Assembly (NCBI GenBank): GCA_036003045.1
Contig: DASYSS010000042.1
Coordinates: 1-64,000, forward strand
Direction of reading: 5' to 3'
Source: Gemmatimonadaceae bacterium
GTDB lineage: Bacteria > Gemmatimonadota > Gemmatimonadetes > Gemmatimonadales > Gemmatimonadaceae
Length of the DNA: 64,000 nucleotides
Positions 9,533 through 52,209 of this stretch are shown piece after piece; position 1 is the stretch's first letter; the number at the start of each line of letters is the position of its first letter. Made by a program: the position numbers and the translations under genes. Below the pieces are notes generated by a model. It did not search any database. It saw only the letters and a list, made by a program, of their open reading frames with translations, and was not told the DNA's origin.

Positions 9533-10956
9533 CGCACCGGCGCTCCGTTGATCGTCGTGCCCGCGGTATCGAGTCCGTTCACGTGCTCCAGCACGTTCCC
9601 GTTCTCGACGCCACCGAAGTGGCAGTCGACGACGCGCACCCGTTCGATCGGCGCGTTGGCGAAGCCTCGTAGGTAGAGACCGTACTTGCTCTCGCGGCTC
9701 GTGACGTTCCGCATAGCGATGTCGCGCGCGATCGGTGTGAACGAGCCCTTTGCGCCCTCTTCGTAGGTGAAGTCGATCGAGAGCACGGCGTTGGCCAGCT
9801 GTCCCACCGTGACGTCGCGCATGTAGATGTCGCGAACCACGCCTCCGCGCATCGCGTTGTTCTTGATGCGCAGCACGTTGTCCAGACGCGGGCTGTCCAT
9901 GCGGCAATCGTGGGCGAACACGTTCCAGCACCCGCCCGAGATCTCGCTCCCGATCGTGACGCCGCCGTGACCGTCGCGCATCTCGCAGTTGCGGACGATG
10001 ATGTTCTGGCTCGGTGTCTTCACCCTGCGGCCGTCGGCGTTGCGCCCCGACTTGATCGCGATGCAGTCGTCGCCGGTGTTGAACACGCAGCGCTCGATCA
10101 ACACGTCGCGGCTCGACTCAGGATTGCAGCCGTCGTTGTTCGGCCCGAGGCTGGAGATCTTCACGCCGCGCACCGTGACGTTCTCGCACAACACGGGATT
10201 GATCTCCCACATCGGCGAATTCACGATCGACACGTTCTCGATCAGCACGTTGCGGCAGCGGTACGGCTGGATGAACGGCGGGCGGAGATAGTCGCCCTCG
10301 CCGAACCGGCGTCGCTCGACCGCTTCGCCGCGCTCGGCCATCTCGAGCAGCCGTTGACGCGACGCGTTGTAGTTCGGAGCGCCGCGCGACCAACCGAAGT
10401 CCGCCGATCCCTTCCACGGCCACCAGTGCGCACGATCGGCCTGGCCGTCGAGCGTGCCCTCGCCCGTGATCGCGACGTTCTGCTGATCGAACGCATAGAT
10501 GAACGGCGAATAGTTCATCAGCTCCGTGCCCTCGAACCGCGTCAGCACGGCGGGCAGGTAGCGGCGCGGATCACGGTCGAAGAGCAGCGTCGCGTCGCGC
10601 ACGACGTGCAGCTCGACGTTGCTCCGGAGATGAATCGGCCCCGTCGCGAAGCGCCCCGCCGGCACGACGACGCGTCCACCACCGGCGCTCGTGCAGGCCG
10701 CGATCGCGCGACCGATCGCCTGCGTCGCGTCAGTCCGGCCGTCGCCGACCGCGCCGAAGCGCGTGATGTCGAACTCGCGATCGGGAAACACCGGCGGTTT
10801 GATCCGCGCGAGAATCTCCGGCACGAGCTCCCATCCCCGGTCGGCCGAGGGCCGAGGCGACGGTGTCGGGCTCGCGTTGCAACCCGCCGCGCCGAGTGGC
10901 GTCATCACCGCGGCGCCGGCGCCGAGCGCTCGAAGAAAATCGCGCCTGGTCGTCAT
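9529..10956 (-). CDS. GH28 polygalacturonase, probable Tat-exported lipoprotein
   Basis: A 475-residue glycoside hydrolase. The N-terminus MTTRRDFLRALGAG is a twin-arginine signal, and AAGC at residues 23-26 may be a lipobox. The GH28 active-site motifs are NNDGCNPESS (an NNDG form of NTDG), TGDDCIAIKSG, GHGGVTIGSE and RIKN, all in canonical order. This is the second GH28 in the operon and, unlike the 3' gene, it stands alone without a CE8 domain. The Tat route contrasts with the Sec-type leader of the fused enzyme, so the two may work at different places. The start is 7 bases after the transporter stop; its own stop overlaps the GH105 GTG. Confidence 0.93.
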   Translation of the reverse strand: MTTRRDFLRALGAGAAVMTPLGAAGCNASPTPSPRPSADRGWELVPEILARIKPPVFPDREFDITRFGAVGDGRTDATQAIGRAIAACTSAGGGRVVVPAGRFATGPIHLRSNVELHVVRDATLLFDRDPRRYLPAVLTRFEGTELMNYSPFIYAFDQQNVAITGEGTLDGQADRAHWWPWKGSADFGWSRGAPNYNASRQRLLEMAERGEAVERRRFGEGDYLRPPFIQPYRCRNVLIENVSIVNSPMWEINPVLCENVTVRGVKISSLGPNNDGCNPESSRDVLIERCVFNTGDDCIAIKSGRNADGRRVKTPSQNIIVRNCEMRDGHGGVTIGSEISGGCWNVFAHDCRMDSPRLDNVLRIKNNAMRGGVVRDIYMRDVTVGQLANAVLSIDFTYEEGAKGSFTPIARDIAMRNVTSRESKYGLYLRGFANAPIERVRVVDCHFGGVENGNVLEHVNGLDTAGTTINGAPVR

Positions 10957-10963
10957 GATCGGC

Positions 10964-12340
10964 TCAGTCCCTGTCGGCGGCAGTGTCTTTGTCGAGCGAC
11001 GCGCGCTCGAGCCGCGGCGCGAGAAGATGAATCACGATCAGCGCGGCGACGTACGCCGTGCCGCACACGAAGAAGATCGGCGTGTAGTTGCTGCCGTTGT
11101 GCTGCAGCACCCAGCCCGTGCCGCGCTGGAACAGCGTACCGCCGATCGCGCCGAAGAATCCGCCGATGCCGACCACCGAGCCGACCGCGTACTGCGGGAA
11201 CATGTCGCTCGACAGCGTGAAGATGTTCGCTGACCACCATTGGTGCGCCGCCGCCGCCACGCCGACGATCACGACCGCGACCCACATGTTCGTCGCCGAC
11301 GGCGCGAACATCGTCGGCACGATCACCAGCGCCGCGATGAGCATCGTCGTCTTCCGCCCCGCGTTCACCGACCAGCCGCGCTTGATAAACGCGCCGGAGA
11401 GATATCCGCCGAACACCGAGCCGACGTCGGCGAGCAGATAGATGACGATGAGCGGCATCGCGATCTGCGACAGCTTGATGCCGTATCGCGAGTCGAGAAA
11501 CTTCGGCAGCCAGTATAGATAGAACCACCAGATGGGGTCCGTCATCAGCTTGCCGACGGCGAACGCCCACGTCTGGCGGTGGCGCACCAGCTGTGTCCAC
11601 CGGACGCGCTTCCCCCTCCCCGATTCGACCGGCTCGCTCGAGATGTGCGCCAACTCGGCGGGGCCGCACTTCGGGTGCTCGCGCGGCGGCCGATAGATCA
11701 TGAGCCACGGAATCAGCCACAGGAATCCGAGCGCACCCGTCGCGATGAACGCCGGCCGCCATCCCCAGTTGAGCGCGATCCACGGCACGAGGATCGGCGT
11801 GATGATCGCGCCGACGTTCGACCCCGCGTTGAACACGCCGGTCGCCAGCGCGCGTTCGCGCGACGGGAACCATTCGGCGACCGTCTTGATCGACGCCGGG
11901 AAGTTTCCTGACTCGCCAAGGCCGAGGACGAAGCGAGCGATGCTGAAACCCGATGCCGTCCGCGCGAGCGCCATTCCCATCGCGGATAGACTCCACACCG
12001 TGACCGACCCGGCAAAGCCGCGCCGCGTGCCGAAGCGGTCCATGATGCGCCCGGCGAACAGGAACCCGATCGCGTACGCGATCGTGAACCACGACACGAC
12101 GTCGGCGAACTGCTGCTCGTTCCATCCAAGATCGCGCTGGAGCGTCGGGCCGAGGATGCCGATGACTTGGCGGTCGATGTAGTTGATCGTCGTCGCGAAG
12201 AAGAGCAGCGCGCAGATCGTCCAGCGATACCGTCCCACCTTGGCGAGCGCACCGCTCCCGGCGAGCGCACCCCCGGCGGCACCGGACGCCGTCAGCTCCG
12301 ATTCCGTCGTGTCTCGCCGCGTATCGACTGGGGTCGCCAT
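10964..12340 (-). CDS. exuT: MFS hexuronate transporter (ExuT-like)
   Basis: A 458-residue major facilitator protein with 12 predicted membrane segments. The first reads LFFATTINYIDRQVIGIL, typical of the anion:cation symporter family that includes ExuT; GRIMDRFGTRRG is the loop 2-3 motif. The chosen ATG has a strong ribosome site (GGAGGAGAG) about 5 bases upstream; a longer frame upstream lacks one. It sits in the inner membrane, and in this operon the obvious cargo is galacturonate or short uronates. No outer-membrane channel or SusCD pair is encoded nearby. Substrate assignment rests on context. Confidence 0.85.
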   Translation of the reverse strand: MATPVDTRRDTTESELTASGAAGGALAGSGALAKVGRYRWTICALLFFATTINYIDRQVIGILGPTLQRDLGWNEQQFADVVSWFTIAYAIGFLFAGRIMDRFGTRRGFAGSVTVWSLSAMGMALARTASGFSIARFVLGLGESGNFPASIKTVAEWFPSRERALATGVFNAGSNVGAIITPILVPWIALNWGWRPAFIATGALGFLWLIPWLMIYRPPREHPKCGPAELAHISSEPVESGRGKRVRWTQLVRHRQTWAFAVGKLMTDPIWWFYLYWLPKFLDSRYGIKLSQIAMPLIVIYLLADVGSVFGGYLSGAFIKRGWSVNAGRKTTMLIAALVIVPTMFAPSATNMWVAVVIVGVAAAAHQWWSANIFTLSSDMFPQYAVGSVVGIGGFFGAIGGTLFQRGTGWVLQHNGSNYTPIFFVCGTAYVAALIVIHLLAPRLERASLDKDTAADRD

Positions 12341-49277: not shown

Positions 49278-50335
49278 GACGCTCGCGTCGCGACGCCCCC
49301 CGCGCCGGCGTCCCGTGTCATCGTCCCCTTGTACGCCATCGGCGGCTCGTCGACGCCGAAGTTGGTTGCCGCGAGCTCGGCGACGCGCTCGAGATCCGCG
49401 GCCGACAAGTCCGGCGCGTCGCTCGCCGCCGCGAATTCCGCGAGTTGCTCGTCGTCGTAGATGTTGGGCAGCGTCGTCACCACCCGCGGCTCGGCGAGCA
49501 GCCATTTGAGCGCGGCTTGGCCGAGCGTCATGCGCGTGGCGAGGAAGTCGAGCGTTTTGACTTTCTTGATGCCGTTGACGAGCCACGACCGCGGGCGATG
49601 GCGACGGTGGTCGTTTTCCGGAAATACGGTGTCCTCGGTGTACTTCCCTTCGAGCATTCCCGACGCGTGCGTCACGCGAATGTTGAAGCAGCAGTTCGGC
49701 GCGTGCGCTTTGGCCGCGTCGATCATCGCCGTGCCCGGATGCTGCTCGAGCACGTTCCAGATCATCTGGATCGTGTCGATGTCCGGCTCTCGCTCGACGA
49801 GATCGACGGCTTCGTACAACCAACCGATCGCCGGACCGAACGCCGCGCCCCATGCGCGAATCTTTCCTTCGCGCTTGAGCTGGCGGAGCGTGTCCCACAG
49901 CTCGCGGTCGAGCACGTGCTCCATCTTCGCGTTGTGCAACTGCAGCACGTCGATGTAGTCGGTCTCGAGACGCTCGAGGCACTTGTCCACGGCGAAGCGC
50001 AGAAACGCCGGATCGGTGCGCATGGGCAGCTCCGACTGTCCTCGACGCGACTTCTGCGCGGCCTCGTCGTAGATGTCGTAGCCGACCTTCGTCGCGATCA
50101 CGACGTCCTGTCGACGGCCGCGGAACGCCTCGGCGATCTGCCGCTCGGCGCGGCCGTTGCCGTACGCGTCGGCGGCGTCGAAGAAGTTCACGCCGTGGTC
50201 ATCGAGCGCGCGGCGCAGCATGCCGACCGCGTCGGCGTCCGTCTTGTCGCCCCACCAGCCGGTGGAGATCGTCCACGTGCCGAATCCAACTTCGCTGACG
50301 CGAATATCGGTTCCGGGAAAAATGCGATGCTTCAT
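49274..50335 (-). CDS. aldo/keto reductase
   Basis: A 353-residue AKR-fold protein. The tetrad is visible: Asp in [10 protein letters not shown], Tyr in the same motif, Lys in IATKVG and His in [18 protein letters not shown] is typical of the class 5/13-like family. It reduces carbonyls with NADPH; the substrate is unknown. It overlaps hemB and ppa by 4 bases at each end, so it is produced in step with heme synthesis and pyrophosphatase. Confidence 0.9.
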
Positions 50336-51321
50336 GTGTGAGCGCCGGAGTTGAGCAGCTTCGCGGCTTCGCGCGCGAAGTACGTGATGATCACGTCCGC
50401 GCCGGCCCGCCGAATGCCGAGGAGCGAGTCCATCATGACACGCTCCCCGTCGATCCAGCCGCGCTGGGCGGCTGCCTGAATCATAGTGTACTCGCCGCTC
50501 ACCTGAAACGCGGCGAGCGGGTAGCCGGTCTCGTGCTTCACGCGGTGGATGATGTCGAGGAACGGCCCGGCGGGCTTCACCATCACCATGTCCGCGCCTT
50601 CTTCGATGTCGAGCCGCACCTCGCGCAGCGCCTCGTCCGAGTTGGCGGAGTCCATCTGGTAGCCGCGCCGGTCGCCGACCTGCGGCGTCGACTCAGCCGC
50701 TTCTCGGAACGGCCCATAAAACGGCCCGGCGAACTTCGCCGCGTAGCTCAGAATCGGCATGTCGGCGAACTCGTTCTCGTCGAGCGCCGATCGGATCGCG
50801 CGCACACGACCGTCCATCATGTCGCTCGGCGCCACGATGTCCGCGCCGGCCCGTGCGTGTGAGACCGCCTCACGCGCCAGCAGCTCCAGTGTCGCATCGT
50901 TGTCGACCACGCCGTCGTGCAGCACGCCGCAGTGGCCGTGCTCGGTGTACTCGCAGAGACACACGTCGGTGATCACGACGAGGTCGGGCACGTCCTTCTT
51001 CAGCGCGCGGACCGCCTGCTGTACGGGCGCCTCATCGTTCCACGCCTCGGAGCCCGTCGCGTCCTTGTGGTCGGGAATTCCGAAGAGAATGACGCCGCCG
51101 ATTCCCGCGCGTGCCGCGATGTGTGCGTCGATCAGCATCTCGTCGATCGAGGTCTGAAAGACCCCCGGCATCGACTCGATCGGACGCCGAACCTTGGTGC
51201 CCGAGCGAACGAAGAGCGGCAACACGAGCTGCGACGGACGCAACGACGTTTCGCGCACGAGGCGCCGAAGGGACTCGGTGCGCCGAAGACGTCGAGGACG
51301 GTAGACCGGAAACTCGGGCAT
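50332..51321 (-). CDS. hemB: delta-aminolevulinic acid dehydratase HemB
   Basis: A 329-residue enzyme that condenses two aminolevulinate molecules to porphobilinogen. The zinc cysteine cluster [12 protein letters not shown] (about 122-133) marks the zinc-dependent class. The two active-site lysines lie in [14 protein letters not shown] and MVMVKPAG. First gene of the hemB-AKR-ppa unit; the 427-base region upstream holds the inverted hairpin elements. HemC and HemD are encoded 1.5-4 kb away. Confidence 0.96.
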
Positions 51322-51407
51322 GGCTCAGAGAAACTAACCCGCCCTTCGACGGCGCGACTTCGCACTGCTCGATGGGCTATCCTCCGCGGACTGCTCGGGG
51401 CGGGACT

Positions 51408-51474
51408 GTCCTCCGCGGACCAGTGCAGTATTGCCGACACTGCCCGGCAATACTTCCTCGGCTCCGCTCCGGAC
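51408..51474 (+). repeat. REP-like palindromic element, copy A
   Basis: The core is a perfect 10-bp stem (51427-51436 with 51445-51454) with the 8-base loop ACACTGCC. It is one of two inverted copies in the 427-base gap (51322-51748) between hemB and the VOC gene; this gap holds no credible coding sequence. Flanks (GTCCTCCGCGGACCAGT and CTCGGCTCCGCTCC) are also shared with copy B. Confidence 0.75.
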
Positions 51475-51630
51475 AGCCCCACCCTCGCTCCCCACCGCCG
51501 CGCGCGCCTGGCATTCGCGCAGTGCCGGTCGCTCCCGCCTGTGCCGACGACTAGCGTCTTCGCCTCGCTGAGCGATCACGTTGGGTCCACTTCTCACGCG
51601 TACGCCGAGGCAGCGACGAGACGGCCCGGG

Positions 51631-51699
51631 GTCTGGAGCGCGAGCCGAGGCAATGCTGCCGGGCAGTGTCGGCAGCATTGCACTGGTCGCGCGGAAGAC
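51631..51699 (-). repeat. REP-like palindromic element, copy B (inverted)
   Basis: The core is a perfect 12-bp stem (51650-51661 with 51670-51681); its loop GGCAGTGT is the exact reverse complement of the copy A loop. Aligned in the same direction, the stems differ at three base pairs and both partners change each time, so pairing is kept. The pair resembles a REP/BIME arrangement. Confidence 0.75.
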
Positions 51700-51748
51700 C
51701 TCGGGCGGCTCAGGCGCGTGCGTCGCGCGAGTCGCGCGGGAGAGACGA

Positions 51749-52156
51749 TCAGAAGGAAGCAAACCCCACGACGTTGCCGCCGGGTTCGCGGACGTAGAAC
51801 TCCGTCGATCCGTAGAACGTCTCGTGCTTCGCCTTCACGACCGGCGCGCCGGCGAGAGCCTGTTCCGCCGCCGAGAGATCGGCGAGCGACGCGACGGTGA
51901 GGAAGAGCGCCACACTGTGGCCGGTGAGCTCCGCGGCTTGCGCCGGGCTGTCGGCGATTACGCTGGCGCGCGTCTGGTACATGATCTCGACGCCATCCTT
52001 CTTCACGCTGGCGAAGACCAGCTTACCGTCCGGCCCAGGCACCTCGTTCGCCTTGGCGAAGCCGAGCTTCGTCGCCCAGAACTCGAGACATGGTTCGACG
52101 GCGTCGACGATCAGAACGGGAGCCAGCGTTTGCATCGTTGGCGAAGCGGCGGTCAT
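51749..52156 (-). CDS. VOC-superfamily (glyoxalase/bleomycin-resistance-like) protein
   Basis: A 135-residue protein of one VOC unit: LAPVLIVDAVEPCLEFWATKLGF is the typical opening beta-alpha module and FYVREPGGNVVGFASF the closing one with the metal-side Glu/Pro-Gly pattern. The substrate is unknown. The open frame could begin at a GTG at 52189, but that codon sits inside the palindrome and upstream of the probable transcription start, so I use the ATG at 52156. Divergent from a PadR regulator with which it shares the operator region; likely controlled by it. Confidence 0.82.
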   Translation of the reverse strand: MTAASPTMQTLAPVLIVDAVEPCLEFWATKLGFAKANEVPGPDGKLVFASVKKDGVEIMYQTRASVIADSPAQAAELTGHSVALFLTVASLADLSAAEQALAGAPVVKAKHETFYGSTEFYVREPGGNVVGFASF

Positions 52157-52186
52157 CATTTGGCACTTGTCCGTTTGGGTTGACGA

Positions 52187-52209
52187 CACTAGTATAAATG
52201 ATACTAGTG
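52187..52209. promoter_or_regulatory. PadR-type operator palindrome
   Basis: A perfect inverted repeat CACTAGTAT-N5-ATACTAGTG lies between the divergent VOC and PadR genes. It covers the -10 box of the VOC promoter. PadR proteins typically bind palindromes of this kind (ATGT/ACAT-like or related) in their own promoter region, so it is probably an autoregulatory operator. Confidence 0.65.

Follow-up and report, generated by a model that had tools for sequence, protein, structure and literature searches.

What kind of element are the two inverted hairpins that lie in a gene-free gap upstream of hemB, and by what means have their stems stayed paired while their sequences diverged? The locus lies within a 64,000-nucleotide stretch of a Gemmatimonadaceae bacterium genome, which we refer to as the window. 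A sequence-only reading of this DNA had described the hairpins as a REP-like pair with compensatory base-pair changes. The pair belongs to a dispersed palindrome family and is probably a gene-less (MITE-like) derivative of units that enclose a small DNA-binding gene.

Structure and position of the hairpin pair

Several features of the sequence-only reading could be confirmed directly in the sequence, including the two perfect inner stems of 10 and 12 bp, the 8-base loops of copies A and B that are reverse complements of each other, and the three stem pairs that differ on both sides (G-C/A-T, A-T/G-C, T-A/C-G). The 427-base gap that separates hemB from the next gene, of the Glyoxalase superfamily, was also measured correctly (Table 1). 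The hairpins themselves had been drawn too short. Each window hairpin is ~85 nt in length, and outside its inner stem lie, in outward order, a small internal loop, a middle stem with a bulged C, a 3x3 internal loop that is conserved, and a variable outer stem.

The 47-nt arms of copies A and B were found to be 85% complementary. When folded as single strands with DNA parameters, the two copies gave z-scores of -4.5 to -6.8 against 200 dinucleotide shuffles, none of which folded as well, and the whole hairpin region also folded better than its shuffles (z -7.95). A 32-base core pattern matched twice in the window compared to 0.00 matches expected. The left hairpin is located 78 bp upstream of the hemB start, and the right hairpin starts ~41 bp past the stop codon of the Glyoxalase-superfamily gene.

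The spacer of the window copy shares 77% identity across 69 bp with the flank of an L-type hairpin at C57:76147, and this flank in turn matches the copies at C28:19803 and C57:97128, so that a gene-less subfamily exists. It was also noted that a fragment resembling the arm piece outside the left hairpin adjoins the copy on C90.

Table 1. Features of the hairpin pair, its flanks and the gene-bearing units of the family (window positions, unless genome and contig are given).
Feature	Position	Strand	Description
hemB (ALAD), flanking gene	50332..51321	-	PF00490
5'-arm fragment of another L-type hairpin	51374..51391	+	GGGCTATCCTCCGCGGAC; direct repeat immediately outside the element
Left (L-type) hairpin, copy A	51395..51487	+	Covariance model match (51399-51483, +, 74.3 bits), folds, sequence
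L outer stem			GGGGCGGGACTGTCC/GGACAGCCCCACCC
L internal loop and middle stem			3x3 loop TCC/TCC; middle stem GCGGACC/GGcTCCGC, C bulged
L inner stem	51427-51436/51445-51454		10 bp
L loop	51437-51444		ACACTGCC
Spacer of gene-less copy	51488..51611	.	No recognisable HTH_37 gene remnant
Right (R-type) hairpin, copy B	51612..51714	-	Inverted relative to L; covariance model match (51622-51708, -, 100.6 bits), fold
R outer stem			GCCCGAGGTCT/AGACCCCGGGC; then 3x3 loop
R middle stem			GCGCGACC/GGcTCGCGC, one bulged C
R inner stem	51650-51661/51670-51681		12 bp
R loop	51662-51669		GGCAGTGT
Glyoxalase-superfamily gene, flanking	51749..52189	-	PF00903
Intact gene-bearing units	G000:C90, G002:C9, G005:C6, G005:C39		HTH_37 ORF between inverted hairpins

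Distribution of the hairpins within the genus

The hairpins form a dispersed family. The genome-wide search for further copies, which had been proposed as a check, returned many more in the same genome and in the genus. Within its own 5.37-Mb genome the window region matches many places, comprising complete inverted pairs, lone L-type or R-type hairpins, and fused and truncated copies. With a covariance model built from 13 hairpins, five of the six genomes of this genus of soil bacteria gave matches, and the 172 other Gemmatimonadaceae genomes gave none. The sixth genus genome (G003) was without hairpins and gave only a weak generic HTH match. A total of 39 distinct hairpins were collected, ~85-110 nt in length (inner stem ~9-15 bp; loop ~6-8 nt), with 1 to ~17 intact copies per genome. 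They occur singly or as inverted pairs, and single hairpins are common.

It was noted that 36 of 37 hairpins lie outside predicted genes, in loci of which a gene caller assigns 83% to coding sequence. Most sites lie past the 3' end of a gene, often where two genes converge; many hairpins begin 20-80 nt past a stop codon, and their orientation relative to the upstream gene is variable. In the loose sense of the term (dispersed, extragenic and palindromic), they are repetitive extragenic palindromes. Of the 39 hairpins, 19 have the tetranucleotide GCTC just beyond their 5' end, compared to ~3 expected from distal windows, which suggests that the units have defined ends.

None of the five congeners carries a hairpin at its hemB locus. 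At the corresponding site of G001, the hemB/VOC/PadR synteny is kept and a different small gene occupies the gap. Conservation of the pair in relatives, whose absence the sequence-only reading had named as part of its refuting condition, is therefore lacking at this site, yet the family as a whole is dispersed and species-variable, as would be expected of a mobile repeat.

Several rearranged or neighbouring structures were also recorded. At G000:C90:42358-42889, the inner stem of an R-type hairpin is broken by an insert of ~500 bp whose translation, read by eye, resembles a fragment of an ISL3-family transposase. At G000:C37:63432-63481, the 5' arm of an L-type and the 3' arm of an R-type hairpin meet at a short word common to both (CGCGGA), and G000:C17:35614-35743 carries an L-R fusion; both look like footprints of deletion between the two palindromes. 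A second dispersed palindrome (GTCATCCTGAGCGAAGCGAAGGATCTC ... GAGATCC..TCAGGATGAC) adjoins several of the G004 hairpins. A long hairpin at G198:C117:33654-33720, with GGGGGAGATTTTCGGATC as its outer stem and TTGCCAGTATTGGCAA in both arms, lies away from any HTH motif and suggests that another genus has a repeat of a similar kind. The count of TNGCCANNNNTGGCNA in other genera was weakly informative.

Covariation and strand asymmetry

We assessed covariation in an alignment of 13 hairpins that was made without structure, the structure itself being derived from the same 13 sequences. Of the 35 pairs, 21 showed double-sided changes (53 cells) and none a change confined to one side, with 88.6% of cells paired. 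None of 500 shuffles reached any of the five covariation measures, and the signal was lost when the partner was slid by 1-3 columns. The covariation noticed in the window pair is real, but selection as its sole cause is not required. Imperfect palindromes can also come to covary through template-switch correction, so that paired changes need not reflect selection alone. The pairing can be maintained by selection, by hairpin-specific processing, or by such correction.

In the modelled orientation, A.C mismatches exceeded G.T mismatches by 18 to 1 in 13 hairpins and by 41 to 18 in all 39, and the bias was absent or reversed in G004. This excess is a weak strand asymmetry. A strand-specific G.T/G.U signal was consequently set aside as an argument, having been strong on 13 hairpins, fallen on 39 and reversed in G004.

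The linked HTH_37 gene

We found that four inverted pairs from three species each enclose a single HTH_37 (XRE-type) gene of 80-142 aa. At G004:C26 an ORF remnant lies beside a hairpin, and the hairpins of G004 persist with this mere gene remnant. The hairpins are a genus-specific family of extragenic palindromes with a TIRtron-like layout, in which the HTH_37 gene stands in the transposase's place.

Two of the unit proteins scored 37.2 and 48.1 bits against HTH_37 (PF13744; Pfam gathering cut-off 27), and all 10 tested proteins matched HTH_37, with 0 of 10 matching Y1_Tnp. The HTH_37 ORFs are under purifying constraint (dN/dS roughly 0.2-0.6). The protein is predicted to fold into a compact helix bundle of the XRE type (core pLDDT 86-89), to which 2a6c and 2o38 are the nearest structures; the PDB fold search gave no match at E <= 0.001. 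No recognisable catalytic domain was found in the unit protein. An assignment to the HigA antitoxin of a HigBA module was rejected, since no HigB-type toxin gene is adjacent and the ORF stands alone between the hairpins in the four intact units.

The hairpins are associated with one clade of HTH_37 genes. Of 13 HTH genes in this clade (genus included), 11 have a GGCA/TGCC palindrome no more than 300 bp away, compared to 3/20 and 2/23 for other HTH_37 genes, in a comparison whose clade limit was set by score after the scores were seen and whose loci are partly related. Relatives of the linked gene in other genera adjoin one TGCC/GGCA palindrome. The MAG Chersky_446 (G194) possesses two 89%-identical HTH-plus-hairpin units with common boundaries, ~2.5 kb apart if a 127-base overlap of contig ends is read as adjacency. 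A protein-alignment scan of 84,980 species genomes returned matches in Gemmatimonadaceae/Gemmatimonadetes MAGs only.

The RAYT gene that the sequence-only reading had advised looking for was encountered neither in the same genome nor in the other hairpin-rich genomes (Y1_Tnp, PF01797; 0 matches in G000, G002, G004 and G005), and GTAG was found within 10 nt of either hairpin end in 0 of 39 hairpins. A RAYT/REPtron identity was ruled out on these two grounds. The likeness to REPs and BIMEs holds for the extragenic hairpins and their BIME-resembling pairs, and fails for REPs proper, given the missing RAYT and GTAG and the length of the hairpins. A phage or plasmid origin was also rejected: viral contigs yielded neither a hairpin match nor an HTH relative, the element itself matched no phage or plasmid, and the plasmids gave a single weak HTH match, from Nocardia. 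The defence-system library gave no match.

Proposed explanation and alternatives

We assign a probability of about 0.55 to the reading that the window pair is a gene-less copy of a genus-specific REPtron/TIRtron-like palindrome family with a linked HTH_37 protein and an enzyme acting in trans. The complete unit would consist of a hairpin, the small HTH_37 (XRE-type) gene and an inverted hairpin, with single hairpins and gene-less inverted pairs as its dispersed derivatives. The protein may recognise the GGCAnnACTGCC-type palindrome core, for autoregulation and/or for marking of the repeats. Because it has no recognisable catalytic domain, we infer a trans-acting enzyme that would copy or move the units, probably on their folded single-stranded or cruciform form. 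Points against this reading are the small number of intact gene-bearing units, the lack of a visible target-site duplication, the score-based clade limit behind the palindrome association, the persistence of hairpins in G004 and the fold search with no PDB match at the cut-off. More tentatively, the family may represent a class of bacterial palindrome repeats that have a small XRE-type DNA-binding protein as their dedicated partner, in place of an HUH transposase; that protein would bind the palindrome core while host or foreign enzymes spread the units in trans. The hairpin-HTH-hairpin units are short and cloneable, and binding and mobilisation are therefore directly testable in laboratory strains.

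An ordinary MITE appears unlikely, even as the best placed of the alternatives. Here the hairpins would be long terminal inverted repeats recognised in trans by a conventional transposase that was lost or left unassembled, and HTH_37 would be passenger cargo in some copies. With just four intact units that bear the gene, it could be cargo trapped by flanking hairpins, and the inverted ends, gene-less copies with a common spacer, low copy number and lineage-specific placement agree with this account. However, no transposase lies between matching ends at the loci examined in five genomes (draft assemblies), and no target-site duplication is visible in 8 pairs, read without a close empty site for comparison. 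The frequency of single hairpins is unlike that of two-ended MITEs, and the HTH clade adjoins palindromes in other genera too.

We consider it somewhat less probable still that the palindromes are binding sites of an HTH_37 autoregulator, with the dispersed hairpins as regulon or nucleoid-type sites that are under selection and not mobile. In favour of this are the XRE-type DNA-binding fold of HTH_37, the recurrence of the core words GGCAATACTGCC, GGCAGTACTGCC and TTGCCAATACTGGCAA in several genera, either beside the gene or within the same genomes, and the small number of one-sided changes, as in a duplex dyad. Such an operator would need only ~20 bp, whereas the hairpins extend to 85 nt with a covarying outer stem, and their position mostly 3' of genes, often between convergent genes, and lack of conservation at the hemB locus also argue against it.

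A function at the RNA level, in which 3' hairpins stabilise or end transcripts, is improbable. Many hairpins do start 20-80 nt past stop codons, and the A.C excess in one orientation (41 vs 18) would correspond to G.U pairs on the other strand. However, the strand bias fails in G004 and the hairpins are not consistently oriented with respect to the upstream gene. An intrinsic terminator and a known RNA family were both rejected as identities, as neither window hairpin has a terminator-like site or its T-run signature and there was no Rfam match.

That the hairpins are attC-like sites of a resident integron integrase is very improbable, since an IntI over cut-off in G000, G004 and G005 and an attC-like architecture (folded hairpin, bulged base, symmetric internal loop) are set against the absence of R boxes (GTTRRRY/RYYYAAC) at all 39 hairpins, the five hairpins of G002 with no IntI over cut-off, and the solitary extragenic copies and inverted pairs. 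In G000, an integron integrase (394 bits, TIGR02249) is located at a contig end, at positions 10193-11200 of G000:C81:28000-39491, and is followed by a GCCTAAC attC-like start; its cassette array was probably lost to the assembly break.

Comparison with known systems

No description of such repeats in Gemmatimonadota, and no paper linking them to HTH_37, was found in the literature searched. The family resembles REP/RAYT REPtrons, REPINs and BIMEs in its extragenic hairpins, singles and inverted pairs, stem bulge and hairpin-flanked resident gene (PMC3116915, PMC8266576). It differs in the lack of a RAYT and a GTAG tag and in numbering a few tens of copies at most; REP hairpins are 20-40 nt and of high copy number, compared to ~85-110 nt here. 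The HTH_37 antitoxin-like proteins HigA3 (6lty) and NE_1354 (2a6c) share the domain family and fold of the unit protein, but here the gene is alone between the hairpins, with no space for a toxin partner.

In TIRtrons, TIRYT genes lie between long TIRs that are in part double palindromes (PMC3733652). The present family shares with them the single small gene between inverted palindromic repeats and the dispersal of the same repeats as singles and dimers, whereas its gene encodes HTH_37 in place of a Y1 HUH transposase. The same genus does contain a TIRtron like those published, at G001:C166:3832-4161, where a Y1 transposase has GGGGTCAGACC-type inverted repeats; these ends are unrelated and unlinked to the window-type hairpins. 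The CGTC-tagged REPs are likewise palindromic repeats that seem to lack a dedicated transposase (PMC3733652), but CGTC was found in only 1 of 39 hairpins here (5' flank), and the present family has a linked DNA-binding gene. This family offers a concrete partner gene for the question of how transposase-less palindromic repeats, such as the CGTC REPs, spread and persist.
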